The notes under the pieces were generated by a model. It worked only from the letters and a program-made list of their open reading frames with translations, had not been told where the DNA came from and searched no databases. Below are positions 4,206 through 44,410 of a stretch of DNA of 44,505 bases, one piece after another; position 1 is the stretch's first letter; every line of letters starts with the position of its first letter. Source of the stretch: Xanthomonas cannabis pv. cannabis (lineage in GTDB: Bacteria > Pseudomonadota > Gammaproteobacteria > Xanthomonadales > Xanthomonadaceae); assembly GCF_000802365.1 (NCBI RefSeq), contig NZ_JSZE01000083.1, positions 1-44,505 on the forward strand, in the 5' to 3' direction. Made by a program: the position numbers and the translations under genes.

Positions 4206-4210
4206 GCCCA

Positions 4211-5263: not shown

Positions 5264-5293
5264 GGGGAAAGTCACTGCAGCGAGGGGGAGCCC

Positions 5294-11664: not shown

Positions 11665-11733
11665 CCTTCGGCAGGGGAGGGCCGGCGAGGCGCTGTGCTA
11701 GGTTTTGCGGCATTGGTTTTTCCGGAAAAATAC

Positions 11734-13827
11734 ATGCCCAAGTTCGCCTCGATCTGCCTGGTTGCCGGCCTGATCACCGCTGGCGCCGTCTCTGCAGAGG
11801 AAACCGCTGTGTCCAACGACCCCTACGCCTGGCTGGAAGATGTCACCGGCGCCAAACCGCTGGACTGGGTCAAGGCCCAGAACGCCAAGACCGAAGCGCG
11901 CCTGGCCACGACGCCGGCGTTCAAGCAGATGGAAACCAGCATCCGCGAGGTGCTGGATTCGGACGCCAAGATCCCGGGCGTGCAGAAGATCGGCGCGTAC
12001 TACTACAACTTCTGGAAGGACAAGCAGCACGAGCGCGGCCTGTGGCGGCGCACCACGCTGGACGAATACCGCAAGCCGGCGCCCAAGTGGGAAACGGTGC
12101 TCGACCTGGACGCGCTCAACAAGGCCGAGGGCGAGAACTGGGTCTGGCACGGCGCCGACTGCCTGCGCCCGGAGTACCAGCGTTGCCTGATCGCGCTGTC
12201 GCGCGGCGGCGCCGATGCCGATGTCACCCGCGAGTTCGACCTGGGTAGCAAGCAGTGGGTCAAGGATGGCTTCTTCCGTCCCGAGTCCAAGGGCGGGCTG
12301 GGCTGGATCGACCGCGACACGGTCTATGTTTTCACCGATTTCGGTGCCGGCAGCATGACCAGCTCCGGCTACCCGCGCATCGCCAAGCGGTGGAAGCGCG
12401 GCACCCCGCTCAGCGCCGCGGCGGTGGTGTACGAAGGCAAGCCGACCGACATGTACATCGCGGCGATGCACGACGACACGCCCGGCTTCGAGCGCGATTT
12501 CGTCAGTCGCACGCTGGCCTTCTACAACGACGAGCTGTATCTCAAGGGCGCCGACGGCAAGCTGGTCAAGGTGGACGTGCCCAATTCGGCCAGCAAGGCG
12601 GTCAAGCGCCAATGGCTGACGCTGGAGTTGCGCGAGCCGTGGACGGTCGGTGGCAAGACCTACAAGGCCGGCTCGCTGCTGGCCACGCGCTTTGACGACT
12701 TCATGGCCGGCAAGCGCAGCTTCGATGTGCTGTTCGAACCCACCGAGACCACCTCGCTGGCGGGCGTGGCGTGGACCAAATCGCACCTGGTGTTGAACGT
12801 GCTGGAAGACGTCAAGAACCGCCTGAGCGTGGTCACCCCGTCGCAGGACGGCTGGAAGAAGAGCGCCTTCGTCGGCGCGCCCGCGTTCGGCACGGTGGAT
12901 GTCAGCGCGGTGGACAGCGACGACAGCGATGCGCTGTGGCTGACCGTCACCGACTACCTGACGCCCACCACCTTGTCGTGGGTCGAGGTGGGCAGCGCGC
13001 CGCAGCCGCTCAAGACCATGCCGACGTTCTTCGATGCCGGCAAGGACAGCATCGAGCAGCACTTCGCCACCAGCAAGGACGGCACCCGCGTGCCGTACTT
13101 CCTGGTGCGCCCGAAGGATCTCAAGCTCGACGGCAGCACGCCGACGTTGCTATACGGCTATGGCGGTTTTGAGATTTCGATGACGCCCAATTACTCCGGT
13201 GGCCTGGGCCGCGCCTGGCTGGAAAAGGGGGGCGTCTACGTGGTGGCCAACATCCGCGGCGGCGGCGAATACGGCCCGCGCTGGCACCAGGCCGCGCTCA
13301 AGCAGAACCGCCACAAGGCCTATGAAGACATGGCCGCGGTGGCCAAGGACCTGGTGGCGCGCAAGATCACTTCCACCAAGCACCTGGGCGTGCAGGGCGG
13401 CAGCAACGGCGGCCTGATGACCGGCAACATGCTCACCCAGTATCCGGAGCTGTTCGGTGCGGTGGTGGTGCAGGTGCCGCTGCTGGACATGAAGCGCTAC
13501 AGCCACCTGCTGGCCGGCGCCTCATGGATGGCCGAATACGGCAACCCGGATACCGACGACTGGAAATTCATCCAGACCTTCTCGCCGTACCACCTGTTCG
13601 ATGCGAAGAAGACCTACCCGCCGGTGATCTTCCTCACCTCCACCCGCGATGACCGCGTGCACCCGGGCCACGCGCGCAAGATGGCGGCCAAGATGATCGA
13701 GGCCGGCAAGGACGTGACCTACTACGAGAACATCGAAGGCGGCCACGGCGGCGCAGCCAACAACGCGCAGGCTGCGCATATGGCGGCGCTGGCCTACAGC
13801 TTCCTGTGGGAGCGGTTGGCCGACTGA
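11734..13827 (+). CDS. Prolyl oligopeptidase family serine peptidase (S9A), exported
   Basis: The enzyme should cut short peptides after proline. It has 697 residues including a signal peptide (MPKFASICLVAGLITAGAVS, then AEE), so it acts outside the cytosol. The N-terminal part (PYAWLEDVTGAKPLDWVKAQ) and the seven-bladed propeller are followed by the alpha/beta hydrolase domain. Ser557 lies in GGSNGG, the acid is in TRDDRVHPGH (Asp639/640) and His671 is in EGGHGG. NIRGGGEYGPRWH is the usual segment before the nucleophile. I start at ATG 11734, where the signal peptide begins; the frame reaches back to 11695. A second S9A peptidase lies at 15406, beyond an aminotransferase gene. Confidence 0.92.
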   Translation: MPKFASICLVAGLITAGAVSAEETAVSNDPYAWLEDVTGAKPLDWVKAQNAKTEARLATTPAFKQMETSIREVLDSDAKIPGVQKIGAYYYNFWKDKQHERGLWRRTTLDEYRKPAPKWETVLDLDALNKAEGENWVWHGADCLRPEYQRCLIALSRGGADADVTREFDLGSKQWVKDGFFRPESKGGLGWIDRDTVYVFTDFGAGSMTSSGYPRIAKRWKRGTPLSAAAVVYEGKPTDMYIAAMHDDTPGFERDFVSRTLAFYNDELYLKGADGKLVKVDVPNSASKAVKRQWLTLELREPWTVGGKTYKAGSLLATRFDDFMAGKRSFDVLFEPTETTSLAGVAWTKSHLVLNVLEDVKNRLSVVTPSQDGWKKSAFVGAPAFGTVDVSAVDSDDSDALWLTVTDYLTPTTLSWVEVGSAPQPLKTMPTFFDAGKDSIEQHFATSKDGTRVPYFLVRPKDLKLDGSTPTLLYGYGGFEISMTPNYSGGLGRAWLEKGGVYVVANIRGGGEYGPRWHQAALKQNRHKAYEDMAAVAKDLVARKITSTKHLGVQGGSNGGLMTGNMLTQYPELFGAVVVQVPLLDMKRYSHLLAGASWMAEYGNPDTDDWKFIQTFSPYHLFDAKKTYPPVIFLTSTRDDRVHPGHARKMAAKMIEAGKDVTYYENIEGGHGGAANNAQAAHMAALAYSFLWERLAD

Positions 13828-14111: not shown

Positions 14112-15296
14112 TCAAAAATGCTTCAACCCACGCGCGATCCGCTCCACCGCCTGCTCCAGGCGTGGCAGGCTCTGCGTGTAGGCGATGCGTACGTGCTGGT
14201 TGGCGCGGTGGAAACCGAAGTCGATGCCGGGGGTGAAGGCCACATGTTCGGTTTCCAGGAAGTGCGCGCAAAACGCCTGTGCATCGTCTGAAAATCCGCT
14301 GATGTCGGCATAGAGGTAGAACGCGCCTTGCGGTTCGACGGCGATCGTGAAGCCTAGCTCGCGCAGGGCGGGCAGCAGGTAGTCGCGACGTTGCTGGAAC
14401 TGCGCGCGGCGCGCTTCGAAGATAGCGATGCTGTCCGGGGTGAAACACGCAAGCGCCGCGTGCTGCGCAATGGTGGAGGCGCTGATGTAGAGATTCTGCG
14501 CGAGTTTCTCCAGCTCCGGCACCGCGTCGGGCGGCGCGATCAGCCAGCCCAGCCGCCAACCGGTCATGCCGAAGTACTTGGAAAAACTGTTCAGCACAAA
14601 CGCACTGTCGTCCACTTCCAGCACGCTGTGTGCGTCCAGGCCATAGGTCAGGCCATGGTAGATCTCGTCCACCACCAGATGCCCGTCATGTGCACGCACG
14701 GCATGCGACAACGCGGCCAATTGATCGTGTGACAGCACGCTGCCGGTGGGGTTTGCCGGCGAGGCGACCAGCGCACCTACGCTGTCGGTGTTCCAGCACG
14801 CGTCCACCAGGGCCGGGGTGAGCTGGTAGTCGCTGTCGGGCCCCACAGGCACCAGCTGCGCGGCACCTTCGACCAGGCGCAGGAAGTGCCGGTTGCACGG
14901 GTAGCCGGGGTCGGCGAGCAACCAGTGCTTGCTCGGGTCCACCAGCAGGCTGCTGGCCAGCAGCAGCGCACCGGAGCCGCCGGGGGTGACCAGGATGCGT
15001 TCCGGGTCGACGGTGCAGCCGTAGCGTTGTGCATAAAACCCGGCAATCGCCTCGCGCAATGCGGGCAGCCCGCGTGCGGCGGTGTAGCGGGTATGCCCGG
15101 CGGCCAAGGCAGCCTGCCCGGCAGCCACGATCGGCGCGGCGGTGGTGAAGTCGGGTTCGCCGATTTCCAGGTGGATCACATCGTGACCTGCCTGTTCGAG
15201 TGTGTTGGCGCGGGCCAGCAGCGACATCACATGGAATGGGGCGATGTCCTGGCTGCGTCGGCTGTACCCGGCCGCGGGCGAAAGCGTTGAGTTCAT
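14112..15296 (-). CDS. PLP-dependent class I/II aminotransferase
   Basis: A cytosolic fold-type I aminotransferase of 394 residues. Visible family residues are the substrate/PLP segment HLEIGEPDF, Asn182 in ASPANPTG, Asp210 and Tyr213 in VVDEIYHG, the Schiff-base Lys240 in NSFSKYFGMTGWRLGW, and the carboxylate-binding Arg in HVRIAYTQS. The order and spacing are those of aspartate/alanine-type enzymes. The exact substrate is not readable. I start at ATG 15296 (MNSTLSPAAGYSRRSQ); an upstream extension to 15359 lacks similarity. It is divergent from the protease gene at 15406, with about 110 bp between for both promoters. Confidence 0.9.
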   Translation of the reverse strand: MNSTLSPAAGYSRRSQDIAPFHVMSLLARANTLEQAGHDVIHLEIGEPDFTTAAPIVAAGQAALAAGHTRYTAARGLPALREAIAGFYAQRYGCTVDPERILVTPGGSGALLLASSLLVDPSKHWLLADPGYPCNRHFLRLVEGAAQLVPVGPDSDYQLTPALVDACWNTDSVGALVASPANPTGSVLSHDQLAALSHAVRAHDGHLVVDEIYHGLTYGLDAHSVLEVDDSAFVLNSFSKYFGMTGWRLGWLIAPPDAVPELEKLAQNLYISASTIAQHAALACFTPDSIAIFEARRAQFQQRRDYLLPALRELGFTIAVEPQGAFYLYADISGFSDDAQAFCAHFLETEHVAFTPGIDFGFHRANQHVRIAYTQSLPRLEQAVERIARGLKHF

Positions 15297-15405
15297 TGCG
15301 AAGATGATAGGCCAGCATGACCTAGGACACATGACGTCCGTCGACGGGCTCTTCCACACTCGGGCGCTGGGATGGCATTGCGTTCATCCGACGGACCCCA
15401 ATCTG

Positions 15406-17520
15406 ATGAAACCTGTCCTGACCTTGTTGATCGCCAGCCTGATGACCACAACCGCATCCTCTGCACTTGCCGCTCTCCCCACGCCGCCAGACGTCGCCAG
15501 GCACCCGCATGTGGTCAAGGCGCCGTTCGGTGCGACCCGCAACGACGACTACTACTGGCTGCGCGACGACAAGCGGCAGGACAAGGCGATGCTGGCCTAC
15601 CTCAACGCCGAGAACGCCTACACCGATAAGGTGATGGCGCCGCTCAAGCCGCTGGAAGATGCGCTCTACGGCGAGATCGTCGGGCGCATCAAGCAGGATG
15701 ATGCCAGCGTGCCGTATCGCGAGCGTGATTATTGGTATTACACCCGGTTCGAGGCCGGCAAGGATTACCCGATCCAGGCGCGCCGCAAGGGCAGCATGGA
15801 AGCGCCGGAAGAAATCCTGCTGGACGTCAATCAGATGGCGCAAGGCAAGGGCTACTTCAGCGTGGGCGAGGCGGAGGTCAGCCAGGACAACCGCATTCTT
15901 GCCTGGGCGGACGATGCGATCGGCCGCCGTCAGTACACGATCCGTTTCAAGAACCTGGACACCGGCGAGATTTATCCGGATACCGTGGAAGGCGTTGCGG
16001 CCAACCTGGTGTGGGCCGATGACAACAAGACGGTGTTCTATGTCGAAAACGACCCGGAGACACTGCTGACCGTCCGGGTCAAGAAGCATGTGCTGGGCAC
16101 TCCCGCCAAGGACGATGTGCTGGTCTACGAGGAAAAGGACGACAGCTTCTACATGGGCGTGGGCCGCACCCGCGACGACAAGTACATCACCATCGGCGTG
16201 GAAAGCACGGTGTCCTCCGAAACGCGTTACGCATTGGCGGCCAAGCCGGACACCTTCAAGGTGCTGGCCAAGCGCGAGCGCGATGTGGAATACAGCGCAG
16301 AACACTTCGATGGCCGTTGGGTGATCCGCACCAACGCCGATGGCGCCGAGAACTTCAAGCTGGTGACTGCACCGACCGACGCGACCACGCGTCAGCAGTG
16401 GACCGACTGGGTGGCGCACGACGAGAGCGTGTATATCGAAAACTTCGAGTTGTTCGACGGCTTCACCGCCATCGAAGAACGCTCCGGCGGCCTGGAGCGT
16501 GTACGCCTGCTCAAGCGCGATGGCAGCCATGAATACGTCAAGGCCGATGAGTCGGCATATTCGATGGGCCTGTCGGTCAATCCCGAGCCGGACACCGCGG
16601 GGCTGCGCTACAGCTACACCTCGTTGACCACGCCGGCGACCACCTACGAACTCAATACGCAGACCGGCGAACGCAAGCTGCTCAAGCAACAGCCGGTGAT
16701 CGGCTACGACCCGGGCAAATACGTCACCGAGCGGGTCTGGGTGACCGCGCGCGACGGCGTCAAGGTGCCGGTGTCGCTGGTCTACAAACAGGGCTTCAAG
16801 AAGGACGGCACCGCTGCGTTGTTCCAGTACGCCTACGGCAGCTATGGCATGTCCACCGACCCGGCGTTCAATCTGCCTGCAGTGAGCCTGCTCGATCGCG
16901 GCGTGGTGTATGCGCTGGCGCATATCCGTGGCGGCCAGGAGATGGGCCGCAAGTGGTACGACGATGGCAAGTTGCTGCACAAGAAGAACACCTTCAACGA
17001 TTTCATCGACGTCACCCGCGGGCTGGTGGCGCAGGGGTACGTCGCCAAGGACCGGGTTGCGGCGTCCGGCGGCAGTGCCGGTGGGCTGTTGATGGGCGCG
17101 GTGGCCAACATGGCGCCGCAGGACTACCGCGTGCTGGTGGCGCAGGTGCCGTTTGTCGATGTGGTGACCACCATGCTCGACGCCAGCATTCCGTTGACCA
17201 CCAACGAATACGACGAGTGGGGCAACCCGGAAGAGAAGGATTACTACGATTACATGCTGTCGTACTCACCGTACGACAACGTGCGCAAGCAGGCGTACCC
17301 GGCGATGTTCGTGGGCACCGGCTTGTGGGATTCGCAGGTGCAGTACTGGGAGCCGGCCAAGTGGGTGGCGAAGTTGCGCGATGACAATACCGGGACGCAG
17401 CCGATCGTGTTCCGCACCAACATGGAGGCGGGGCACGGTGGCAAGTCCGGGCGTTTCCGGCGCTACCGCGAGCTGGCCGAGTCGTATGCGTTCGTGCTGG
17501 ATCAGCTGGGCGTGAAGTGA
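15406..17520 (+). CDS. ptrB: Oligopeptidase B (protease II), exported S9A peptidase
   Basis: Oligopeptidase B cleaves short peptides after Arg or Lys. The protein has 704 residues with a signal peptide (MKPVLTLLIASLMTTTASSA, then LA), unlike E. coli PtrB, which is cytosolic. The mature start PHVVKAPFGATRNDDYYWLRDD is typical. The triad is Ser557 in SGGSAGG, Asp642 in GLWDSQVQYWEPAKW and His677 in EAGHGGKSGR. EWGNPEEKDYYDYMLSYSP matches the family segment linked to basic P1 specificity. The start at ATG 15406 is set by the signal peptide. It could process host or cell-wall peptides in the periplasm. Confidence 0.94.
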   Translation: MKPVLTLLIASLMTTTASSALAALPTPPDVARHPHVVKAPFGATRNDDYYWLRDDKRQDKAMLAYLNAENAYTDKVMAPLKPLEDALYGEIVGRIKQDDASVPYRERDYWYYTRFEAGKDYPIQARRKGSMEAPEEILLDVNQMAQGKGYFSVGEAEVSQDNRILAWADDAIGRRQYTIRFKNLDTGEIYPDTVEGVAANLVWADDNKTVFYVENDPETLLTVRVKKHVLGTPAKDDVLVYEEKDDSFYMGVGRTRDDKYITIGVESTVSSETRYALAAKPDTFKVLAKRERDVEYSAEHFDGRWVIRTNADGAENFKLVTAPTDATTRQQWTDWVAHDESVYIENFELFDGFTAIEERSGGLERVRLLKRDGSHEYVKADESAYSMGLSVNPEPDTAGLRYSYTSLTTPATTYELNTQTGERKLLKQQPVIGYDPGKYVTERVWVTARDGVKVPVSLVYKQGFKKDGTAALFQYAYGSYGMSTDPAFNLPAVSLLDRGVVYALAHIRGGQEMGRKWYDDGKLLHKKNTFNDFIDVTRGLVAQGYVAKDRVAASGGSAGGLLMGAVANMAPQDYRVLVAQVPFVDVVTTMLDASIPLTTNEYDEWGNPEEKDYYDYMLSYSPYDNVRKQAYPAMFVGTGLWDSQVQYWEPAKWVAKLRDDNTGTQPIVFRTNMEAGHGGKSGRFRRYRELAESYAFVLDQLGVK

Positions 17521-32832: not shown

Positions 32833-33552
32833 ATGAAGTATCTGCTGAGCGCGGCCCTGTGCGTCGCGGCCCTGACTGCCTGCACCGACCGCGAGGCGCA
32901 ACGCAAGGCGCAGGAAACTGCACAGGCGCAGGCCAAGGAAACCCAGGCCGATGCGCTTGCCAAGCAATACGACGAGGCGGTGAAGGCGCAGAACTGGGAC
33001 ATGGCGCGCGCCCACGGCGCCGCCTTGCTCGAAGGCTATGCCGGCACTGCAGCCGCCACACGCATTGAGCCCGGCTATGCCGACATCAAGGCCAAGGGCG
33101 AGCAGGCGCGCGAACTGCGCCGCATGCAGGCGCTGTGGCAGTACTCGCAGGTGCCGGCCAAGGGTGGCACCCAGCGCTCGGCGATGATCGAGGCCAAGGA
33201 GCGCGTGGATGTGGATGGCAGTGGGCCAAAGCCGGTCAGCCTGGTGTTCCGCGATCATCCGCAGTGGAAGCGCCACAGCTATCTCGTGCTCAAGGCCGGC
33301 GACTTCAATTGCTACGCTGGCTGCAAGGTGCAGGTTGCGACCGACGGCGGCGCACCACGCGCGATGGCGGCGCATCGACCGGATACCGATGAAGCGATCG
33401 CCATGTTCATCGACGACGACAAGGCACTGTGGAAGCTGGTGCGCAACGCCAAGCGCATCAACATCGCCTTCCCGGTCAAGGCCGGCGGCACGCGGACCGC
33501 GGAATTCGAGGTGGGCGGGCTGGACACCACCCAGATGCCGGGCTGGAAATAA
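32833..33552 (+). CDS. Hypothetical lipoprotein
   Basis: The 239-residue protein begins with a lipoprotein signal (MKYLLSAALCVAALTACTDR, lipobox LTAC). A charged, Ala/Gln-rich helix (about residues 20-65) follows, then a mainly beta domain containing two close cysteines (FNCYAGCKV). I recognise no named family. The start is ATG 32833, after ccggagtcgacg. The next gene begins 4 bp after the stop, so both are probably co-transcribed. Confidence 0.75.
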   Translation: MKYLLSAALCVAALTACTDREAQRKAQETAQAQAKETQADALAKQYDEAVKAQNWDMARAHGAALLEGYAGTAAATRIEPGYADIKAKGEQARELRRMQALWQYSQVPAKGGTQRSAMIEAKERVDVDGSGPKPVSLVFRDHPQWKRHSYLVLKAGDFNCYAGCKVQVATDGGAPRAMAAHRPDTDEAIAMFIDDDKALWKLVRNAKRINIAFPVKAGGTRTAEFEVGGLDTTQMPGWK

Positions 33553-34185: not shown

Positions 34186-34379
34186 TTTCGCTGTCTTCAC
34201 TTGGCACGGCGGCATATCGTGTGGCGCTCGCGCGTTGCGAGTTGCCCCGATGTCGCGCCGACGCAGCTCGCCAATCCACTGTCGCGCGCCTTGCGACATG
34301 GGTTCGGCAGGCTGCGATCGGTCAATCTGCGGCACTGTTTTGCAGCGCTGTGCTGCACAGCGCGCACTACATTGAGTTC

Positions 34380-34655
34380 CTGCAGCACACCTGCCCTCAT
34401 CCGCCCTTCGGGCACCTTCTCCCGGTGGGAGAAGGGAGGCGTCTGATGCGGTGATTGAAACGTACTGCATTGCGTCCCTGCAGCACACCCGCCCTCATCC
34501 GCCCTTCGGGCACCTTCTCCCGGTGGGAGAAGGGAGGCGTCTGATGCGGTGATTGAGACGCACTGCATTGTATCCCTGCAGCACACCTACCCTCATCCGC
34601 CCTTCGGGCACCTTCTCCCGTTGGGAGAAGGGAGGCGTCTGATGCGGTGATTGAA
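34380..34655. repeat. Three tandem 98-bp REP units upstream of the PQQ operon
   Basis: ccctcatccgcccttcgggc begins at 34394, 34492 and 34590, exactly 98 bp apart. Each unit has the palindromes gcccttcgggc and ccttctcccggtgggagaag, then gaggcgtctgatgcggtgat and a shared tail with actgcattg and ccctgcagcacac. The core is the same element, inverted, as at 13923 and 17562. Bases 34186-34379 before it contain no gene. Confidence 0.88.
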
Positions 34656-34738
34656 AGCGGTAGCGTTGCTGCTGGTGAGCACAACAAGCGCAAGCTCCAG
34701 GGCTCAGCAAAGTGCTAGAGCGCTCAGCACGGTGCTAG

Positions 34739-34778: not shown

Positions 34779-35255
34779 CCCAGGCGCCATCGGCACATCC
34801 TCGCGCCTTCGGCACATCCTGAGTGCATCGCGCAAAGACGCTGCATGGTGCGTGCATCGTCGTGAGCAGTGCACGTCTCCAACCGTCCAATGCCCGCCCT
34901 CATCCTTCATCGTGCTTGGCCTCCCAGCGGGCGAAGGCAGACAACACCTTCCAACGATCCTGCGCACGTGCCTGGGCACCGCAAGAGCGCCACGCCTTCA
35001 CCCAACCGCACGCAGTGCTCCACCAGCGCGACAGCACGCCCGGCGCAAACTGTGCCAAATGCGTGACACCTGGTGTGCTGCGGCAACCACGCGTGCGCAA
35101 CGCGCTGCCACTGCAAGGTGCTGCGACGCAACAGTACGCTGGCACGCGCTGTGCTCTGTCGTCTCCCGGTACCCACCCGTTTGCGCCGTCGCTGCGCAGC
35201 AAGCGCGCGTGGCTCTTCGTTCGATTGGATTCTTCACCGAGAGGGGTAGACGCAT

Positions 35256-37277
35256 ATGCACCAATCTTCCTGTCGCCGCATCGGCAGCTCGGCGCTGCTG
35301 ATGCTTGCGCTGAGCATCGTGTTGGCCGGTTGCAAGAAAGACACGCCGGCTGCCGATACCGCACCGCCCGCACCTGCCGCCGCACCCGCCGCGACGCCGG
35401 CCGCCGCCGTGGTCGACACCGACGGCGAATTCACGGCCAACGCCAGCAATGCAGACAACTGGGGCGGCGTGGGGCGCGACTTCGCGCTCACCCGGCATAG
35501 CCCGTTGGCCGAGATCAATCGCGACAACGTCAAGAATCTGAAGATGTCGTGGGAGATGAAAACCGACGCAACGCGCGGCCACGAAGGCCAGCCGCTGGTG
35601 ATCGGCAGCATCATGTACATGGTCAGTGCGTACCCGAACAATGTGTTCGCCATCGACCTCGCAGCGCAGGACGACGGTGGCAAGGTACTGTGGAAGTACA
35701 CCCCGCAACAGGACGAACGCTCGGTGGCGGTGGCGTGCTGCGACACGGTCAACCGCGGCGCCTCGTATGCCGATGGCAAGCTGGTGTTTGGCAGCCTCAG
35801 CGGCGATGTGATTGCGCTCGATGCCAAGACCGGCAAGGAAGTGTGGAAGCAGAAACTCGCGCACCCGGACAAGGGCGAAACCATCACCATGGCGCCGATC
35901 ATCGCCGATGGCAAAGTGGTCGCCGGCATCAGCGGCAACGAGTTCGGCGTGCTCGGGCGCGTGGCCGCCTACAACCTGTCCGATGGCAAGCAGGCCTGGT
36001 CCTGCGATGCGGCCGGCACCGACAAGGCCATCTGCCTGGGTCCGGATTTCAACAAGGCCAATCCGCAGCATGGCCAGCTCGGCGATCTCGGGGTGAAGAC
36101 CTTTCCCAACGACGAATGGAAGCGCGGTGGCGGCGCGGCCTGGGGCTGGTACAGCTACGACCCGAAGTTGAAGCTGGTGTACTACGGCACCGGCAATCCC
36201 GGCCTGTGGAGCCCGTCGTACCGCTGCGGCAAGACCACGCACGAGGAATGCAACAACGGCGAGCATGACAACAAGTGGTCGATGACCTTGTTCGCACGCA
36301 AGATCGATACCGGCGAAGCGGTGTGGGGCTATCAGAAGACCCCGTTCGACCAGTGGGATTACGACGGCATCAACGAGCCGATCCTGGTGGACCTCACCAT
36401 CGACGGCAAGCAGGTTCCGTCGGTGGTGCAGTTCGATCGCAATGGGTTTGCCTATGTGCTCGATCGTCGCGACGGCACGTTGTTGCGCGCGCATAAATTC
36501 GTGCCGGCCAACTGGGCCGAACGCATCGACATGAAGACCGGCCGCCCGGTCAAGGTGGCGGCGCATTCGCCGCTGGAACGCGGCAAGAAAGTGCAGGCGT
36601 TCCCGTCGGCGATGGGTGGCAAGGACCAGCAACCGTGCTCGGTGGATCCGGCCAACGCGGCGGTGTTTTTCTGCGGTACCAACAACTGGCACATGGAGCT
36701 GGAGCCGCAGGAGCGCGGCAATACCATGATGGGCCTGCCGTACGTGTTCGCCAACGTGATGATGAAACCGAACGAGCCGGGTGCGCTGGGCATCGTCAAG
36801 GCGTTCGACGTGGTGGAAGGCAAATCCAAGTGGGAGATCAAGGAAAAGTTCCCGGTGTGGAGTGGCACCCTGGTCACCGATGGCGGGCTGGTGTTCTACG
36901 GCACGCTGGATGGCTGGTTCCGTGCGGTGGACAAGGACAGCGGCAAGAAGCTGTGGGAGATGAAGCTGCCCTCCGGCATCATCGGCAACCCGATCGCCTA
37001 CAAGGCCAACGGCCACCAGTATGTGGCGGTGTTCTCCGGCATCGGTGGCTGGATCGGCCTGCCGGTCGCAGCGGGGTTGGATCCGAGTGACCCGTATGGC
37101 GCACTGGGTGCGGCCGGGCTGGCGTTCGGGGCCGGTTTCGACAAGATTCCGCTCGGCGGCATGGTGCATACCTTCCGCCTGGATGGCGCCGGCAAGACCG
37201 TGTCGACCACCACGACGGCCACCGCAGCGGCCGGGGGCGGCGGTACCGCCAACGCAGCCGCGAAGACGGCACGATGA
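35256..37277 (+). CDS. xoxF: PQQ-dependent alcohol dehydrogenase, lanthanide type (XoxF-like), lipoprotein
   Basis: A quinoprotein that oxidises methanol or similar alcohols to aldehydes in the periplasm and passes electrons to a cytochrome. The 673-residue protein has repeated PQQ-propeller blades, the vicinal disulfide Cys161-Cys162 (AVACCDTVNRG) and metal ligands Glu229 (GNEFGVLG), Asn314 (GTGNPGLW) and catalytic Asp368. Asp370 in WDYDG is the additional residue that marks lanthanide-dependent enzymes; calcium-type MxaF has Ala there. Odd features are a lipobox (VLAGC) with an Ala/Pro-rich linker, whereas XoxF proteins are normally soluble, and an Ala/Thr/Gly-rich tail after about residue 645. 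It is the first of six genes likely forming one operon; the next start overlaps its stop (ATGA). Confidence 0.88.
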   Translation: MHQSSCRRIGSSALLMLALSIVLAGCKKDTPAADTAPPAPAAAPAATPAAAVVDTDGEFTANASNADNWGGVGRDFALTRHSPLAEINRDNVKNLKMSWEMKTDATRGHEGQPLVIGSIMYMVSAYPNNVFAIDLAAQDDGGKVLWKYTPQQDERSVAVACCDTVNRGASYADGKLVFGSLSGDVIALDAKTGKEVWKQKLAHPDKGETITMAPIIADGKVVAGISGNEFGVLGRVAAYNLSDGKQAWSCDAAGTDKAICLGPDFNKANPQHGQLGDLGVKTFPNDEWKRGGGAAWGWYSYDPKLKLVYYGTGNPGLWSPSYRCGKTTHEECNNGEHDNKWSMTLFARKIDTGEAVWGYQKTPFDQWDYDGINEPILVDLTIDGKQVPSVVQFDRNGFAYVLDRRDGTLLRAHKFVPANWAERIDMKTGRPVKVAAHSPLERGKKVQAFPSAMGGKDQQPCSVDPANAAVFFCGTNNWHMELEPQERGNTMMGLPYVFANVMMKPNEPGALGIVKAFDVVEGKSKWEIKEKFPVWSGTLVTDGGLVFYGTLDGWFRAVDKDSGKKLWEMKLPSGIIGNPIAYKANGHQYVAVFSGIGGWIGLPVAAGLDPSDPYGALGAAGLAFGAGFDKIPLGGMVHTFRLDGAGKTVSTTTTATAAAGGGGTANAAAKTAR

Positions 37278-39049
37278 GCTCCACGCACGGCGTCGGACGC
37301 GCATGTCGGCAGATGCCTGCCGGCGTGCGCGGCATGACCGCGCACCTGCACACGGTGCTGCTGGTTTGCAGCCTCGGACTCGTCGCCGCAGGTTGCACAC
37401 GCGAGCCGTCTTCACCGACGGCTCGCGTTTCTGACTCCGGTGCGGTTCCGGCCGCGGCGCCGGCACACACCGCGCCACCGGCATCCACTGCAGCGTCGGT
37501 GTCTGCGCCGCCGCCCACGCCCGATCCAACGGTGCTGCGGGTGTGTGCAGACCCGGGCAACATGCCGCTGTCCAACCAGGCCGGCGAAGGCTTCCAGAAC
37601 AAGATTGCGCAGGTGGTGGCCGCTGCCATGGGCCGGCGGCTGGAATACGAGTGGCGCACCTATTACCAGCGCGGGCTGGCCCGCAGCACGATCAACGCGG
37701 GTCGCTGCGATCTGTTGATGGACCTCAACAGCGATTTCGAGCAGGGGTTGACCACGCGCCCGGTGTATCGCTCGGCCTATGTGCTGGTGACGCGCAAAGG
37801 CCTGAACCTGGTACCGACCTCGCTGGACGACCCCGCACTGAAGAAGCTTCGGCTGGGCGTGTTCCAGAGTTCGCCGGCGCGCCAGGCGCTGTACGAACAC
37901 GGCGTCAGCGGTGAGGTGCAGTACCTGTTCTACGACTCGGCCACCGCACCGGAAGAACATCCCGGCAAGCTGGTGGAGCAGGTGGCCGCCAATGCACTGG
38001 ATGCGGCCGAATCCTGGGGCCCGGTGGCCGGCTATTACGCGGCGCGCAGCGGGCTGGGCGTGGTGCCGTTGAACACCATCGACGATGCGGTGCTGGAGTA
38101 TTCGATGGCGTGGGCGGTGTCGCGCAAGAACGCGCAGCTACGCGATGCATTGAACAAGGCACTGCAGGACAACGCCGCAAAGATCGCCGAGATCCTGCAG
38201 GCTTATCACGTGCCGCTGGTCCGTTGCAGCGACTGCATCGTGGCTGGCGATCTGCCGTCGCATGGGCCTTACACCACACCGGCCCCCGCATCGACTGCGC
38301 GCAGTCCTGCCGCCTCGTCGCAGGAACTGGCGCAGCTGCAGCTGCGCATCGCGGACGGCGCCAACCCCAACCAGGAACTGGCGCATGCGCTGGATGCCGG
38401 CGATGCGCTCCGTGCGGCCTGGTTGCTGCGTCACGGTGCCGACGCCAACACGCCCAACCTGCTCGGCGAGCCGCCGCTGCATCAGGCCATCCGCAACCAG
38501 GAACCGGATCTGGTCGGTCTGCTGCTGGATGCCGGTGCGCGGCTGGATGCGCGCGATGCCAGCGGCTGGACCGCCTTGATGAAGGCAGCCTGGGCCAACG
38601 ATGCCGACAGCGTCAGCCGCCTGCTGCGCAAGCGCGCGCCGGTGGACACCGTGTCCGGCGATGGCTGGAGCGCGCTGGATCTGGCGGTGTCCTACGCCGA
38701 CGCCGAGGTGGTGCAGGCACTGCTTGCTGCCGGCGCAAATGCACGGCGCGCCAACGCCACTGGGTTTACGCCGGTGATGTTTGCAGTGGCACGCGATGAC
38801 CCGGCCATTCTCGACGCGCTGCTCGCGCGCGACGCCGACGTGGGGCGCGCCAATCAGGCCGGTGTCACCGCCTTGATGCTGGCCGCAGCGGCCGGACGCG
38901 AGGACGTCGCAAAGCGTCTGCTGGCGGCCGGTGCCGACCCGGCGGCACGCAACCGCGATGGCAAGACCGCCGCGACATTGGCACAGGACCGCGGCGATAC
39001 CGCGCTGGCTTCGCTCCTCAACGAGGCCAGGCGCCCTGCCAGACGCTGA
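37274..39049 (+). CDS. Quinoprotein-associated binding protein (MxaJ/XoxJ type) fused to ankyrin repeats, lipoprotein
   Basis: The first half (about residues 87-330) is a periplasmic solute-binding domain of the type found beside PQQ dehydrogenases (VLRVCADPGNMPLSNQAGEG, then RCDLLMDLNSDFEQGLTTR). XoxJ is thought to activate or assemble the dehydrogenase. From about residue 363 to the end there are six or seven ankyrin repeats (e.g. GVTALMLAAAAGREDVAKRL), presumably for protein contact. A lipobox LVAAGC shows membrane anchoring. ATG 37274 overlaps the xoxF stop; ATG 37334 (MTAHLHTVLLVCSLG) gives a more typical signal peptide and is the alternative start. A terminator-like hairpin lies just after the lipobox codons. 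Confidence 0.85.
   Translation: MSSTHGVGRACRQMPAGVRGMTAHLHTVLLVCSLGLVAAGCTREPSSPTARVSDSGAVPAAAPAHTAPPASTAASVSAPPPTPDPTVLRVCADPGNMPLSNQAGEGFQNKIAQVVAAAMGRRLEYEWRTYYQRGLARSTINAGRCDLLMDLNSDFEQGLTTRPVYRSAYVLVTRKGLNLVPTSLDDPALKKLRLGVFQSSPARQALYEHGVSGEVQYLFYDSATAPEEHPGKLVEQVAANALDAAESWGPVAGYYAARSGLGVVPLNTIDDAVLEYSMAWAVSRKNAQLRDALNKALQDNAAKIAEILQAYHVPLVRCSDCIVAGDLPSHGPYTTPAPASTARSPAASSQELAQLQLRIADGANPNQELAHALDAGDALRAAWLLRHGADANTPNLLGEPPLHQAIRNQEPDLVGLLLDAGARLDARDASGWTALMKAAWANDADSVSRLLRKRAPVDTVSGDGWSALDLAVSYADAEVVQALLAAGANARRANATGFTPVMFAVARDDPAILDALLARDADVGRANQAGVTALMLAAAAGREDVAKRLLAAGADPAARNRDGKTAATLAQDRGDTALASLLNEARRPARR
37399..37430 (+). terminator. Intragenic terminator-like hairpin (possible attenuator)
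   Basis: A perfect 12-bp stem acgcgagccgtc / gacggctcgcgt with a 6-base loop (ttcacc) is followed by ttctg. It lies about 120 bp after the xoxF stop and inside the start of the next coding region. The T-tract is short, so termination would be partial. It could also protect the xoxF message 3' end. Confidence 0.55.
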
Positions 39050-39110
39050 CCGTTTCATCCGCCGCGTGCACGGGGTGCGCGGCGTTCCCTCCGATCAGAA
39101 AGGTTCGTTC

Positions 39111-39761
39111 ATGCGCAAGTCCACCGTGGGTTGTATCGATCGTTCCGTCCGCGCAGCACTGTGCGGCGTGCTGCTCAGTGCAGTGCTGGCGGCATGCGGC
39201 AAGGAAGAAGCGCCGCCGCCTGCTCCGGCGCCGGATGCGGCGGCACCCGCTGCCGCTGCCGCCGGCGCACCAGCACCAGCACCAGCCGCCACAGCGCCAG
39301 CACCGGCCGCCACAGCGCCAGCACCGGCCGCCACAGCGCCGGGAATGCCTAATCTTGCCGCCGGGCCGGCGCCCGATCCGGCCACACCGCCGGCACCGCC
39401 GGCCACCGTGGCGCCGATTCCGAAGGGACCCGAGGTCAAGGTCACCCCGGAGCTGGTGGCCGAAGGCAAGAAGATCTATTTCTCTGCTGGCTGCAATGCC
39501 TGCCATGGCGGTACCGGTGGCGGCGGCATGTGCCCGCCGCTGACCAACGACATCTGGGTGTATGGCAGCGACGACGACACCTTGCGCGCGCTCATCAGCG
39601 AAGGCACTGCCGCGATGATCACCCACGGCAAGACCCGCATCGGGCACGAAAAGGTGGTCGGCCAGATGCCGCCGTTCGCACCGGTGCTCAAGCCGGGCGA
39701 CACCGAAAAACTGCTGGCCTTCATCCATTCGATCAACAAGACTGCAGGCAAGCCGCAATGA
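39111..39761 (+). CDS. c-type cytochrome, lipoprotein (XoxG-like electron acceptor)
   Basis: The 216-residue protein has one haem site, Cys128-Asn-Ala-Cys131-His132 (GCNACHGG), and a likely axial Met186 in GQMPPFAP, so it is a class I cytochrome c. A lipobox LAAC anchors it, followed by an Ala/Pro linker of about 80 residues that includes a 21-bp tandem repeat. Its position after the dehydrogenase and the XoxJ-like gene suggests it takes electrons from the quinoprotein. ATG 39111 follows agaaagg; the frame is open to 38931, but that part overlaps the previous gene. The stop overlaps the next start (ATGA). Confidence 0.88.
   Translation: MRKSTVGCIDRSVRAALCGVLLSAVLAACGKEEAPPPAPAPDAAAPAAAAAGAPAPAPAATAPAPAATAPAPAATAPGMPNLAAGPAPDPATPPAPPATVAPIPKGPEVKVTPELVAEGKKIYFSAGCNACHGGTGGGGMCPPLTNDIWVYGSDDDTLRALISEGTAAMITHGKTRIGHEKVVGQMPPFAPVLKPGDTEKLLAFIHSINKTAGKPQ
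39268..39342 (+). repeat. 21-bp tandem repeat in the cytochrome linker
   Basis: gccgccacagcgccagcacc repeats with a 21-bp period from 39285 (copies at 39285, 39306 and a partial at 39327), preceded by short caccag repeats. It encodes the in-frame unit APAPAAT, so copy changes would alter linker length without a frameshift. Confidence 0.85.
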
Positions 39762-40825
39762 CGCATGGCCCGCTGCGAACGGCGTGCGCAAGCTGGCAGC
39801 GCCGCTGCACCGCGGTTGCGGTGGGCGCACTGCTGGCCTTGGCCGGCTGCCAGCGCGATGCGGCAGTGCCGGCGGCGGCTGCCGGTGCGCCGCCTGCTCC
39901 GGTAGACGCCGCAACTTCGCCTGCACCCGCACCGGTCGTTGCCTACGTGCCCAATCAGCGCAGCGGCACGGTGTCGGTGATCGACACCGGCACCGACACG
40001 GTGGTGCGCACGCTCAGCGCGCAGGGCCAGCTCGGCAAGCGCTTGCAGCAGGTGTTGCCCGGCCCGCAGGGGCATCTGTACCTGATCGATGCCGAGCACC
40101 ACCGCTTGATCGAACTGGACACCGCCAGGGATGCGGTGCTGCGTCAGGTCGACATCGGCGAAAACGCCGAAGGCATCGCGCTGTCGCCCGATGGCAAGCA
40201 GTTTGCCGTGTGCGTGGAAGGGCAGAACCAGGTGATGCTGATCGATGCCGCGCAGTTCCGCGTGCAGCAGGTGATCGCCACGCGTGGACAGGCACCGGAG
40301 CACTGCGCATATACGCCCGATGGGCAGTGGTTGCTCACCAGCAACGAGGGTTCCAGCGACATGGACATGATCGAGCTGGCCACGCATCGGTCGCGTGGCG
40401 TGGTAGCTACCAGCGGGCATCCGCGCGGCATGGCGTTCGCCCCGGACGGGCGCAGCGTCTACATCGCGCAGGAGACCGCCAACGTGGTGGACGTGGTCGA
40501 CCTGCAGACCCGCACCCGACGCGCCAGTCTGCCGGCCGGCGTGCGCACCGCCGGGGTCGCCTTGTCGGGCGATGGCACGCGGCTGTACGCGTCCAACGGC
40601 GGCGCCGGCACGGTCAGCGTGATCGACACGCAGAACGGGCGCAGCGTGGCCGAGATCCCGGTCGGGCTGCGGCCCTGGAATCCGGCGCTCACCCCGGCCG
40701 GCGACAAGCTCTACGTGGCCAACGGGCGCTCCAACACGGTGAGCGTGATCGACACCGCCAGCCTGCGCGAACGCAAACAGATCCCCGTCGGCGAACTGCC
40801 GTGGGGCGTGGTCATCGCGCGCTGA
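39758..40825 (+). CDS. YVTN beta-propeller lipoprotein of the PQQ-catabolism-associated type
   Basis: The 355-residue protein has a lipobox LALAGC and an Ala/Pro linker, then seven-bladed propeller repeats with the YVTN signature (SGTVSVIDTGTDTVVRTL, AGTVSVIDTQNGRSVAEI, SNTVSVIDTASLRERKQI). Such proteins are often encoded beside PQQ dehydrogenases. Their role is unsettled; a scaffold or an accessory for cofactor loading is possible. ATG 39758 overlaps the cytochrome stop. The frame is open to 39530, but only inside the previous gene. Confidence 0.85.
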   Translation: MTHGPLRTACASWQRRCTAVAVGALLALAGCQRDAAVPAAAAGAPPAPVDAATSPAPAPVVAYVPNQRSGTVSVIDTGTDTVVRTLSAQGQLGKRLQQVLPGPQGHLYLIDAEHHRLIELDTARDAVLRQVDIGENAEGIALSPDGKQFAVCVEGQNQVMLIDAAQFRVQQVIATRGQAPEHCAYTPDGQWLLTSNEGSSDMDMIELATHRSRGVVATSGHPRGMAFAPDGRSVYIAQETANVVDVVDLQTRTRRASLPAGVRTAGVALSGDGTRLYASNGGAGTVSVIDTQNGRSVAEIPVGLRPWNPALTPAGDKLYVANGRSNTVSVIDTASLRERKQIPVGELPWGVVIAR

Positions 40826-40860
40826 GCGGCGGCCATGCCGACGCGCGCCGGGGAGGCGGG

Positions 40861-41967
40861 ATGAAGACACGCGCTGCGGTGGCCTGGGGTCCGCATCAGC
40901 CGCTGACCATCGAGGAGGTGGACCTGCAGCCGCCGCGTCCCGGCGAGGTGCTGGTGCGCCTGGTCGCCACCGGCGTCTGTCATGGCGACGCGCATGCATT
41001 GGTGCATGGCCGCGCGAGCAGCTTCCCGGCGATCCTGGGCCAGGAGGGCGCGGGTATCGTCGAAGAGGTCGGCATCGGCGTCACCAGCGTGCGCGCCGGC
41101 GATCACGTCATCCCGCTGTACATGCCCGAATGCGGCGTGTGCAAGTTCTGCCGCTCCGGCCGCACCAACCTGTGCCAGGCGATCCGCAGCAGCCAGGAAC
41201 GCGGCCTGATGCCCGATGGCAGCAGCCGGTTCTCGTTGAACGGCCGGCCGATCCTGCACCACATGGGCACCAGCACGTTTTCCCAATACACCGTGCTGCC
41301 GGAGATTGCGGTGGCACGCATCCACCCCGACGCGCCGCTGGACCAGGTCTGCCTGCTGGGCTGCACGGTCACCACCGGGGTGGGCGCGGTGCTCAACAGC
41401 GCGCATGTACGCCCCGGCGATTGCGTGGCGGTGTTCGGCTTGGGCGGCATCGGCCTGTCGGTGATCCAGGGCGCGGTGCTGGCGCAGGCCGGGCGCATCG
41501 TCGCGGTGGATATCGACCCTGGCAAGTTCGCACTGGCGCGCGTGTTGGGCGCCACCGATTGCCTGGACCCGCGCGACTACGGTGCACCCATCCAGCAGGT
41601 GATCGTGGATCTCACCGATGGCGGCGCCGACCACAGTTTCGCCTGCGTGGGCGACGTCGCGGCGATGCGCGCGGCGCTGGAGTGCTGCCACAAGGGCTGG
41701 GGTGAGAGCGTCATCCTTGGCGTCGCCGACGACGCGCAGGAAATCAGCACCCGTCCGTTGCAGTTGGTCACCGGGCGGGTCTGGCGCGGCAGTGCATTCG
41801 GCGGGGTGAAGGGGCGCAGCGAATTGCCCGGCTACGTCGAGCGCTATCTGCAGGGCGACATCCAGTTGGCACCGCTGATCACCCGCAGGCTGGCGCTGGA
41901 GGACATCAATCAGGCGCTGGCGGATCTGCGCGCAGCGCGCGGCATCAAATCGATCGTGCTTTATTGA
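40861..41967 (+). CDS. Class III-type zinc alcohol dehydrogenase relative with altered active site
   Basis: A 368-residue NAD-type medium-chain dehydrogenase whose sequence follows S-(hydroxymethyl)glutathione dehydrogenase closely (TNLCQAIRSSQERGLMPDGS, HHMGTSTFSQYTVL, CHKGWGESVILGVA, RPLQLVTGRVWRGSAFGG). The structural zinc cysteines 91, 94, 97 and 105, the NAD motif GLGGIG and Arg109 are present. Catalytic Cys40 and Cys168 are present, but the His zinc ligand is Gln61 (ILGQEGAG) and the Thr after Cys-His is Gly42 (VCHGD). The loop with two acidic glutathione-binding residues also differs. By context it should act on the aldehyde made by the quinoprotein. A strong ribosome site (ggggaggcggg) precedes ATG 40861. 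Confidence 0.87.
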   Translation: MKTRAAVAWGPHQPLTIEEVDLQPPRPGEVLVRLVATGVCHGDAHALVHGRASSFPAILGQEGAGIVEEVGIGVTSVRAGDHVIPLYMPECGVCKFCRSGRTNLCQAIRSSQERGLMPDGSSRFSLNGRPILHHMGTSTFSQYTVLPEIAVARIHPDAPLDQVCLLGCTVTTGVGAVLNSAHVRPGDCVAVFGLGGIGLSVIQGAVLAQAGRIVAVDIDPGKFALARVLGATDCLDPRDYGAPIQQVIVDLTDGGADHSFACVGDVAAMRAALECCHKGWGESVILGVADDAQEISTRPLQLVTGRVWRGSAFGGVKGRSELPGYVERYLQGDIQLAPLITRRLALEDINQALADLRAARGIKSIVLY

Positions 41968-41977
41968 AGGAGACGAC

Positions 41978-44410
41978 ATGACGTCGACCCACCAGGTGCT
42001 GGTTCATTGCAGGACACCGCGACCTCGCGCTGCACAAAAGCGATGCAATGCACTACGAAAACATCGCTTGGCCTACGCCTGCGCAGCGCTGCTGTGCAGT
42101 AGCACGATCGGCAACGTCCTTGCCGACGATACCCCGCAGGTGACCTGGCTGGACCGTATCGAAGTCACCGCCACGCCCATCCCCGGCACCACCATCGATG
42201 CGGCGCAACTGCCGTACATGGTGCAGTCGGCGACCAATGCCGAGCTGTCGCGCGGGCGCAGCAACAACCTAAGCGATCTATTGCAGCGGCGCTTCGTGGG
42301 TGTAGATGGCAACGACGTGCAAGGCAGCGCGTTCCAGAACGACCTCACCTTCCACGGCTTTCGCGCCTCCGCCTTGCCGGGCGCGTCGCAAGGCGTGTCG
42401 GTGTATCTGGATGGCGTGCGCGTCAACGAACCGTTTGCCGACATCGTCAGCTGGGACATGCTGCCCGAATCGGCGATCACTGCGGTGACGCTGATGCCCG
42501 GTTCCAACCCCTTGTTCGGGCCGAATACGCTCGGCGGCGCGGTGGTGCTGTCCACCGCGTCCGGGCTGACCGCGCCCGGGTTGCAGGGCGAAGTGAGTAG
42601 CGGCAGCGGCGCGCGCAAGCGGCTGGATGCCAGTTACGGCGTCGCTGGCGCCGATGGCTGGCATGGCTTTGTGGCGGTGACCGGGTTCGATGAAAATGGC
42701 TGGCGCGATGCCTCCGAGGGGCGGCTCGGCACGCTGTTCGGCAAGCTGGGCAGGCAGGGCGAGCAGACCGACTGGAGCCTGTCGCTGCTGCATGGCCGCA
42801 GCCGTCTGATCGGCAACGGGCTGCTGCCCGATACACGCTACACCGACGAAGGACCGGCACCTGGCTTGTACCGCGCCGATCGGCGTTCGGTGTACACCTC
42901 GCCCGATCTCACCCGCAACCGCAACACGCTGCTGACCGCGCAGCTGGACCACCGTTTCGACGAAGACACCGCGTTGCACGCGCTGGCCTATTCGCGCGTG
43001 GGTCGTCGCGACACCGTCAATGGCGATATCGGCGAAGACTACGAAGGGTTCGTGGAAGAATGCGCCTCCGGCTACGCTGCCGATGGCCGTGCGCTGGATG
43101 CCGAATGCGATGTTGCGCGCGCCGATGCCGATGCCTTGCCCACCGGCGCGCTCAATACCACCCAGATGCGTCAGGAAGCACAAGGCGTTGCGCTCAACCT
43201 GAGCACGCAGTGGGGCGCACACGCGCTCACCACCGGCGTTACCTTCGACCGCGGCCATGTGCGGTATCGGCAGTTCGCCCGCGAGGGCTGGGTGCAACCG
43301 GACCGTTCGGTGGTGGCCGATCCGGCTGCAGAGCGGGCGTTCTTCTCCGGCGTGCGCGGCAGTTCCAAGACGCTCGGCGCGTTCGTCGCCGATACCTGGG
43401 AGCTGGACGCTGCCACCCACCTCACCGCGGCGGTGCGCTGGAACCGCGTCGTGGTGGACAACATCCTGTCCACCGCAGAGGACGGCGACCGCCCGCGCGA
43501 GCGCTTCGTCTATGCCAAGGCCAATCCCTCGCTGGGGCTCACCCACCGGCTGGAGTCCGGGCTGACGGTGTACGGCTCGGTCGCGCAGAACACGCGTGCG
43601 CCCACGGCGATCGAGCTGGGCTGCGCCGACCCCACCCAGCCATGCCGGCTGCCGACCGGCCTGCAGGCCGACCCGCGCCTGGAGCAGATCGTGTCGCGCA
43701 CCTACGAACTGGGCGCGCGCTGGGCGCCGTCGGCCGACAGCAACGCCACCGTGTCGGTGTACCGCGCCGACAATCGCGACGACATCCTGTTCCTGCGCGC
43801 GCCGGAGACCCAGCTGGGCTACTTCGACAACGTGGGCCGTACCCGCTACCAGGGCGCCGATGTCGCGCTGGCGCTGCGCAGCGGCGCTTGGCAGTGGTCG
43901 GCCGGGTACAGCTATCTGGACGCCACCTATCGCAGCGACGGCGAACTGTTGTCCGGCGAGCGTGTGATCACCCTGCGGCCCGGTTTACGGATCGCCGCGC
44001 TGCCAAGGCACCAGCTCAAGCTCGGGGTGGACTGGCAACGCGACGCGCTGACACTGGGCGCCGGCGTGCGTGCAGTGTCCGGGCGCGTGGCCAGCGGCAA
44101 CGAAGATGGCCAGGTCGACAACGCGCAGGAGGGTGAGGCCGCGCCAGAACGCATCGACATTGGCACCGCCGGCTACGCGCTGGTCGATCTGCAGGCGCGC
44201 TGGGCCGTCACCGCGCGGGTAGCGGTCTTCGCACGCATCGACAACCTGTTCGATCGCCAGTACGCCACCTATGCCGCCGTGGCCGAAGACGTGTTCCCCG
44301 ACGGCGAACTCGCCCGCCCGCAGGACGCGCCGGTGGAAACCGGACCGGCACGCTTCCTGGCGCCCGGGGTGCCGAGGCAGTACGTGATCGGGGTGCGTTG
44401 GGCGTTTTGA
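41978..44410 (+). CDS. TonB-dependent outer-membrane receptor
   Basis: The 810-residue receptor has a long signal sequence (about 50 residues, ending CSSTIGNVLA-DD), a TonB-box-like DRIEVTATP, a plug (LSDLLQRRFVGVDGND, VSVYLDGVRVNEPF, NPLFGPNTLGGAVV) and a barrel ending in RQYVIGVRWAF with the terminal Phe usual for outer-membrane proteins. Two close cysteine pairs (EECASGYAADGRALDAEC and LGCADPTQPC) probably form extracellular disulfides. The ribosome site aaggaga lies 10 bp after the dehydrogenase stop, so it is in the same operon. From context the cargo may be a lanthanide complex or PQQ, but sequence alone does not tell. Confidence 0.88.
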   Translation: MTSTHQVLVHCRTPRPRAAQKRCNALRKHRLAYACAALLCSSTIGNVLADDTPQVTWLDRIEVTATPIPGTTIDAAQLPYMVQSATNAELSRGRSNNLSDLLQRRFVGVDGNDVQGSAFQNDLTFHGFRASALPGASQGVSVYLDGVRVNEPFADIVSWDMLPESAITAVTLMPGSNPLFGPNTLGGAVVLSTASGLTAPGLQGEVSSGSGARKRLDASYGVAGADGWHGFVAVTGFDENGWRDASEGRLGTLFGKLGRQGEQTDWSLSLLHGRSRLIGNGLLPDTRYTDEGPAPGLYRADRRSVYTSPDLTRNRNTLLTAQLDHRFDEDTALHALAYSRVGRRDTVNGDIGEDYEGFVEECASGYAADGRALDAECDVARADADALPTGALNTTQMRQEAQGVALNLSTQWGAHALTTGVTFDRGHVRYRQFAREGWVQPDRSVVADPAAERAFFSGVRGSSKTLGAFVADTWELDAATHLTAAVRWNRVVVDNILSTAEDGDRPRERFVYAKANPSLGLTHRLESGLTVYGSVAQNTRAPTAIELGCADPTQPCRLPTGLQADPRLEQIVSRTYELGARWAPSADSNATVSVYRADNRDDILFLRAPETQLGYFDNVGRTRYQGADVALALRSGAWQWSAGYSYLDATYRSDGELLSGERVITLRPGLRIAALPRHQLKLGVDWQRDALTLGAGVRAVSGRVASGNEDGQVDNAQEGEAAPERIDIGTAGYALVDLQARWAVTARVAVFARIDNLFDRQYATYAAVAEDVFPDGELARPQDAPVETGPARFLAPGVPRQYVIGVRWAF

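Follow-up and report, generated by a model that had tools for sequence, protein, structure and literature searches.

What does an operon built around a lanthanide-type alcohol dehydrogenase do in a plant-associated bacterium? The question is raised by a 44,505-nucleotide stretch of Xanthomonas cannabis pv. cannabis DNA (NZ_JSZE01000083.1, here called the window). This stretch is a complete contig (C240) of a genome of 4.76 Mb in 257 contigs, so the region 3' of the operon is visible only in relatives. The best overall explanation, held with moderate confidence, is a lipid-tethered XoxF1 chain that would be activated through sigma-54 and would serve a dissimilatory purpose. Gene content, residues, lipoprotein signals, promoter and synteny are read from the sequence itself.

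Operon layout and the dehydrogenase

Profile searches of the window, with computed junctions, confirm the six same-strand genes with overlaps or short gaps claimed in the preliminary description, at 35256-44410 on the + strand (Table 1). Two junctions are 4-bp overlaps; the remaining gaps are 10, 35 and 61 bp. The gene families named there (XoxF-like, XoxJ-like, cytochrome c, YVTN, class III relative, TonB) are likewise matched by profiles. The YVTN propeller also scores 161 bits against TIGR03866, under the cut-off of 287.

Table 1. Features of the operon and its upstream region in the window
Feature	Position	Strand	Basis
TGT-N12-ACA dyad	35051..35068	+	recurs 5' of promoter in relatives
Sigma-54 (-24/-12) promoter, ~115 bp 5' of xoxF	35140..35155	+	pattern match, conservation across loci
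xoxF: XoxF1-clade PQQ alcohol dehydrogenase, lipobox LAGC	35256..37277	+	TIGR03075, 7o6z, ligands, tree
J-ankyrin fusion, lipobox AAGC	37274..39049	+	TIGR03871, Pfam ankyrin models, XoxJ 6onp
Cytochrome c, one CxxCH, lipobox LAAC, long Ala/Pro linker	39111..39761	+	Pfam Cytochrome_CBB3 and Cytochrom_C, sequence
YVTN beta-propeller lipoprotein (predicted), lipobox LAGC	39758..40825	+	TIGR02276, 165 bits
Class III ADH paralogue, altered catalytic-zinc site	40861..41967	+	TIGR02818, alignments with human class III ADH and relatives
TonB-dependent receptor	41978..44410	+	Pfam plug and barrel

The synteny comparison across Xanthomonas proposed earlier bears the layout out: all six genes are matched in the same order in 24 of 28 loci from the genus, three of them with one gene in two pieces (J in L066, tonB in L073, xoxF in L082). 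The other four comprise L075, without a J gene, L097, cut by a contig end, and the remnants L083 and L084. The six genes are under purifying selection (dN/dS 0.013-0.34 against eight other Xanthomonas loci). Near full-length xoxF is found in 27 of 35 genus genomes (in two frames in G016, from residue 47 in G011); two of the eight genomes without it retain visible fragments.

Several local observations stand beside this picture. In L083 and L084, from two Xanthomonas genomes, just the xoxF start and the tonB end are left, as after an internal deletion. At the locus represented by L075 and L113 (X. arboricola pv. juglandis by L113) the operon is otherwise intact and lacks the J-ankyrin gene and the cytochrome gene start. 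A 98-bp repeat in three tandem copies, 94-100 % alike, lies at 34363-34656, with a HAD gene on one side and the operon promoter on the other. The contig also carries two genes of the prolyl oligopeptidase family (11695-13827 and 15202-17520).

The dehydrogenase scores 593.5 bits against TIGR03075 (cut-off 480), and its top PDB match, at 891 bits, is 7o6z, a neodymium XoxF1 of Methylacidimicrobium. The lanthanide ligands E229, N314, D368 and D370 are all present, together with the vicinal pair Cys161-Cys162; in the alignment the extra-Asp position is Asp in the window protein and Ala in two MxaF-like control rows. The description's lanthanide-type PQQ alcohol dehydrogenase thus holds, by its four ligands and its nearness to a solved neodymium enzyme. 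Lanthanide as the metal and methanol as the substrate are what we infer for it.

Relatives were collected by scanning one genome per species; the best 80 of 207 were kept as 78 loci, and locus counts therefore describe a best-first sample. A quick maximum-likelihood tree built from 66 rows places 59 of them, the window protein included, in an XoxF1 set (SH-aLRT 100). Lysobacteraceae rows group in the same tree (SH-aLRT 100) and then join three Rhodanobacteraceae rows (98). The nearest named relative among the best 80 of 207 is Xanthomonas pisi, which is also the closest row in the tree (99 % over 588 columns), and the XoxF1 set of these 80 includes methylotrophs of the genera Hyphomicrobium and Methyloceanibacter, among others. 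Locus L109, with the operon, comes from the leaf isolate Xanthomonas sp. Leaf148. Four Methyloceanibacter and Hyphomicrobium-type loci among the best 80 of 207 (L134, L136, L141, L153) have a second xoxF within the stretch.

An Asp before the metal-binding Glu is described as diagnostic of XoxF1 in the accessible part of PMC8546591. Among the best 80 of 207 relatives, this position is Asn in all 32 rows of the window and L100-L130; the remaining 50 XoxF1 rows have Asp (46), Asn (three) or Ser (one) there. By tree position the window protein is thus in the clade, and by the published residue it fails, having Asn in place of Asp. Its group is treated here, on the tree, as a XoxF1 sub-lineage without the published marker.

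The J-ankyrin fusion and lipoprotein signals

The J protein scores 260.6 bits against TIGR03871 (cut-off 212), also matches XoxJ 6onp, and falls under the cut-off of the MoxJ model TIGR03870. Its XoxJ-like domain spans residues 88-316, with ankyrin repeats at about 376-581 of the same protein; the true start may be an in-frame ATG at 37334. Among 79 XoxF1 loci including the window (best 80 of 207), J and ankyrin lie in one frame in 72 of the 73 with a J gene, the sole non-fused case, L141, being broken up. The examined stretch of six of the 79 (L113, L162, L172, L174, L175, L177) has no J gene. In three further XoxF1 loci from a class search (L080, L081, L085) the alignment spans both halves. 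No ankyrin occurs in 27 loci of other XoxF/MxaF types (24 distinct places, many short), which hold 15 J rows, 12 of them distinct. With fusion in 72 of 73 XoxF1 loci and ankyrin in none of the 27 others, the fusion marks XoxF1 systems, and it spans Alpha-, Beta- and Gammaproteobacteria and Verrucomicrobia. The accessible part of the open-access literature yielded no mention of ankyrin with XoxJ or XoxF.

Four window proteins carry a lipobox (Table 1), the Cys of XoxF being residue 26. In the Lysobacteraceae set of 29 loci (the window and L100-L127, from the best 80 of 207; L122 is a MAG grouping with Xanthomonas), the lipobox is found in J in 28/28, YVTN in 26/26, cytochrome in 25/26 and XoxF in 26/29. 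The XoxF misses are L110, with a different N-terminus, and L124 and L126, which read PAAC. Outgroups mostly have ordinary signal peptides. By a stricter rule their lipobox-like matches number 0/45 for J, 1/36 for YVTN, 4/44 for cytochrome (including L128 and L129, members of the sister group) and 1/50 for XoxF; by a loose rule there are 2, 1, 4 and 6, respectively. When the lipoprotein state is assigned by group on the XoxF tree, one change is enough. XoxF, J, cytochrome and YVTN are therefore all predicted lipoproteins in Lysobacteraceae. None of the predicted lipoproteins has Asp at +2, which by the E. coli rule would send them to the outer membrane; the cytochrome reads CGK, which we take to resemble an inner-membrane signal of Pseudomonas.

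One XoxF lipoprotein prediction is already in print. The available portion of a study of Xanthomonas campestris lists the methanol dehydrogenase XC_0679 among predicted lipoproteins, with mRNA 5.4-fold up in a lolB mutant, where XC_0677 is 7.0-fold up (PMC8739992). By its printed signal peptide XC_0679 is an orthologue of the window XoxF; what that portion reports of it is mRNA in the lolB mutant, with no discussion of operon, partners or promoter (PMC8739992). Two genes 5' of the operon, at 32833-33552, the window encodes another predicted lipoprotein, whose signal resembles the one printed for XC_0677 in that portion (PMC8739992). No statement of whole-chain lipidation was found in the accessible part of the open-access literature.

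Promoter and adjoining activator

The element TGGCACGCGCTGTGCT has the form of a sigma-54 promoter. The window contains no second match of its pattern, with 0.18 expected; as the pattern is also matched in 17 of 100 shuffles, the single match is weak on its own. Conservation was scored by requiring GG and GC, at least 14 of 16 positions and a location no more than 500 bp 5' of the dehydrogenase domain, for a background of 0.029 per 500 bp. Among the best 80 of 207 relatives, such a site is found in 43 of the 46 XoxF1 loci from Gamma- and Betaproteobacteria and in none of the 30 others. The two groups were assigned by record title once the sites had been inspected a first time; 27 of the 43 are close kin, and L159, L146 and L166 were omitted as too short. 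The site is missing from L124 (Lysobacter), L126 (Pseudoxanthomonas) and L154; L124 and L126 also showed no ADH or receptor gene next to the operon. At 13 of 16 positions, two of the 30 other loci (L145, L177) have a site.

Upstream of the promoter, TGT-N12-ACA recurs in 34 of the 43 loci, with 0.034 expected per region, and in 23 the dyad has 5 or more of its 9 positions paired. Other spacings from N8 to N16 reach at most 7 of 43. The sigma-54 activator probably binds at this dyad.

In Xanthomonas an activator gene follows the receptor gene in convergent orientation (about 0.9 kb off in L062; Sigma54_activat, 206 bits). Its product is AcoR/DhaR-like: it matches DhaR and further sigma-54 regulators that control the catabolism of small molecules, each under its family cut-off. 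In the window's genome the activator orthologue is on contig C146 and stops 23 bp short of the contig end. Within the best 80 of 207, an activator is found in 19 of the 28 loci L100-L127, several of which are cut; it is on the same strand within the cluster in L142, L149, L159, L164, L165, L169 and L173, with weaker matches in L131 and L132. It is also present (E <= 1e-160) in 27 of 27 genus genomes with near full-length xoxF among 35, though cut in G016 and with one stop in G027. Of the eight without such a xoxF, seven lack it at E <= 1e-160 and G008 has it broken. Since the activator adjoins the operon, a shared deletion could explain the co-occurrence.

Beside the activator, L187 encodes at 4034-5812 an X-Tfes XVIPCD domain protein, of a type IV secretion effector family. 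The L187 genes past the activator (the X-Tfe domain, MreB, MreC, a penicillin-binding protein, RodA/FtsW and GH28) gave no clue to a substrate.

Proposed function and competing readings

Substrate, metal, localisation, electron flow, receptor ligand and activator signal are what we infer in the following scheme. XoxF would carry out periplasmic PQQ- and lanthanide-type alcohol oxidation, with methanol as the probable substrate, and electrons would pass from XoxF to the cytochrome and on to the respiratory chain. The J domain may help XoxF mature, while the ankyrin half may dock partners. As dehydrogenase, J-ankyrin protein, cytochrome and propeller are predicted lipoproteins, the chain would be tethered to a membrane and not free in the periplasm. 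The sigma-54 promoter would be switched on by the AcoR/DhaR-like protein encoded just past the operon, its signal probably an alcohol or aldehyde.

PQQ supply is consistent with this scheme. The preliminary description asked for a genome search for pqq genes, and the two searched, pqqE and pqqC, are present elsewhere in the genome, both above their cut-offs. The co-occurrence of pqqC and xoxF proved uninformative as a functional test, pqqC being above its cut-off in 35 of 35 genus genomes. Other quinoprotein-like frames in the genome fall under the alcohol-dehydrogenase cut-off, the best of them on contigs 229 and 255. The receptor may import a scarce cofactor, a lanthanide chelate or PQQ. Of the cofactor or metal uptake claimed earlier, the TonB receptor stands, and no named ligand model passed: no NCBIfam receptor model scored above its cut-off, the PqqU model NF041535 gave 78 bits, its cut-off being 1200, and no PDB sequence matched at 1e-5. 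A lanthanide-chelate receptor would be of the LutH/LanA type.

Aldehyde handling by the class III relative, another earlier claim, is weakened. The fifth gene scores 593 bits against TIGR02818 (cut-off 544), and alignment with human class III ADH shows the zinc-ligand motifs GHE changed to GQE and CHT to CHG, so that of the catalytic-zinc ligands Cys, His and Cys the His is replaced by Gln. Gln stands there in all 24 Xanthomonas rows scored, with CHG in 22 and CHS in two, whereas GHE and CHT are kept in 13 of 13 outgroup rows above 400 bits, some of them outside the operon itself. For this loss of the His, and despite TIGR02818, the protein is not filed as a glutathione-dependent formaldehyde dehydrogenase, and its role in aldehyde handling is doubtful. 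Its dN/dS of 0.06-0.31 suggests that it is kept for something, with glutathione-dependent formaldehyde oxidation a doubtful candidate. Contig 249 encodes a canonical class III ADH (746 bits) near an S-formylglutathione hydrolase (425 bits), and formaldehyde would go mainly to this pair. The best formate dehydrogenase match in the window's genome reaches 529 bits, under the cut-off of 666.

The methylotroph C1-assimilation markers fae and RuBisCO each have 0 matches in the window's genome, so the role is probably dissimilatory, and methanol use as a carbon source, suggested earlier, is not supported. Dissimilatory oxidation of methanol or another alcohol is probably the best reading, and the operon would serve energy or detoxification. 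The absence of these markers also fits a main substrate that is a larger plant-derived alcohol or aldehyde, sensed by the AcoR/DhaR-like activator, with methanol minor. The activator's likeness to DhaR and small-molecule regulators, all under family cut-offs, and the altered class III paralogue lean the same way, and we hold this reading to be possible though unlikely, given the methylotroph genera (Hyphomicrobium, Methyloceanibacter) in the XoxF1 set and a closest solved relative, 7o6z, that the accessible part of its source calls a high-affinity methanol dehydrogenase (PMC8546591). Xanthomonadaceae labelled by 13C-methanol have been reported, and as xoxF1 is mentioned in the available text, xoxF1 in this family is not new (PMC9258066).

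A calcium-dependent enzyme, with lanthanides playing no part in Xanthomonas, seems more doubtful still: Ca is reported for a Methylomirabilis XoxF1 in the part of PMC6028718 available, and the receptor matched no named ligand model and no PDB sequence, but the lanthanide-coordinating extra Asp is present where the two MxaF-like control rows have Ala. That the operon is a relic in decay, without a present role, is highly improbable, because the eight of 35 genomes lacking near full-length xoxF, the further one with it in two frames, the L083 and L084 remnants and the changed ADH active site are set against dN/dS of 0.013-0.34 across six genes, a promoter and dyad kept across species, and gene order held in 24 of 28 genus loci.

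The favoured reading, a tethered XoxF1 chain under sigma-54 control, resembles several known systems. The XoxF1 of Methylacidimicrobium thermophilum AP8 (7o6z) is its best PDB match and shares the XoxF clade and the lanthanide ligands; it differs in having Asp172 and Cys240, in the accessible part of its description, where the window XoxF has Asn and Ala, and three Methylacidimicrobium-type loci have an ordinary signal in place of the lipoprotein signal. The xoxFGJ clusters of methylotrophs (XoxG, XoxJ 6onp) likewise combine a dehydrogenase, a cytochrome c and a J protein, whereas the window has J fused to ankyrin (a XoxF1 trait generally), a propeller, an altered class III ADH and a receptor in the operon, and sigma-54 control. 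The ped cluster of Pseudomonas putida (PedE, PedH) also oxidises alcohols with PQQ in a non-methylotroph and has a J-like PedG, according to the portion available (PMC12997753), but its dehydrogenase is another one and its rare-earth switch is, in a similarly partial source, the two-component PedS2/PedR2 (PMC6115532). Predicted lipid anchors, ankyrin fusion and sigma-54 control set the present system apart as a variant of known XoxF systems. The earlier interpretation keeps its outline and is weak where aldehyde handling is concerned; it did not include the lipid anchors, the ankyrin fusion, the sigma-54 promoter and activator, or the ADH active-site change.

Taken at its widest, the material tentatively suggests, at somewhat less than even confidence, that Lysobacteraceae, plant-associated bacteria which are not known to be methylotrophs, rebuilt a complete chain of lanthanide-type alcohol respiration as a lipid-anchored assembly of four lipoproteins, held by the ankyrin half of J, with a metal or PQQ receptor of its own next to it and with a dedicated sigma-54 activator. 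Through the conserved sigma-54 site and the adjoining activator, effects of an inducer and of lanthanides can be tested directly, and the loss of xoxF in 8 of 35 genus genomes invites a comparison of lifestyles. The ankyrin-fused J can serve to recognise XoxF1 systems and offers a way into how XoxF is matured or docked. If the favoured reading is true, XoxF systems would have a membrane-anchored form, and lanthanides would matter to a major plant-pathogen genus through a metabolic route hardly studied there.
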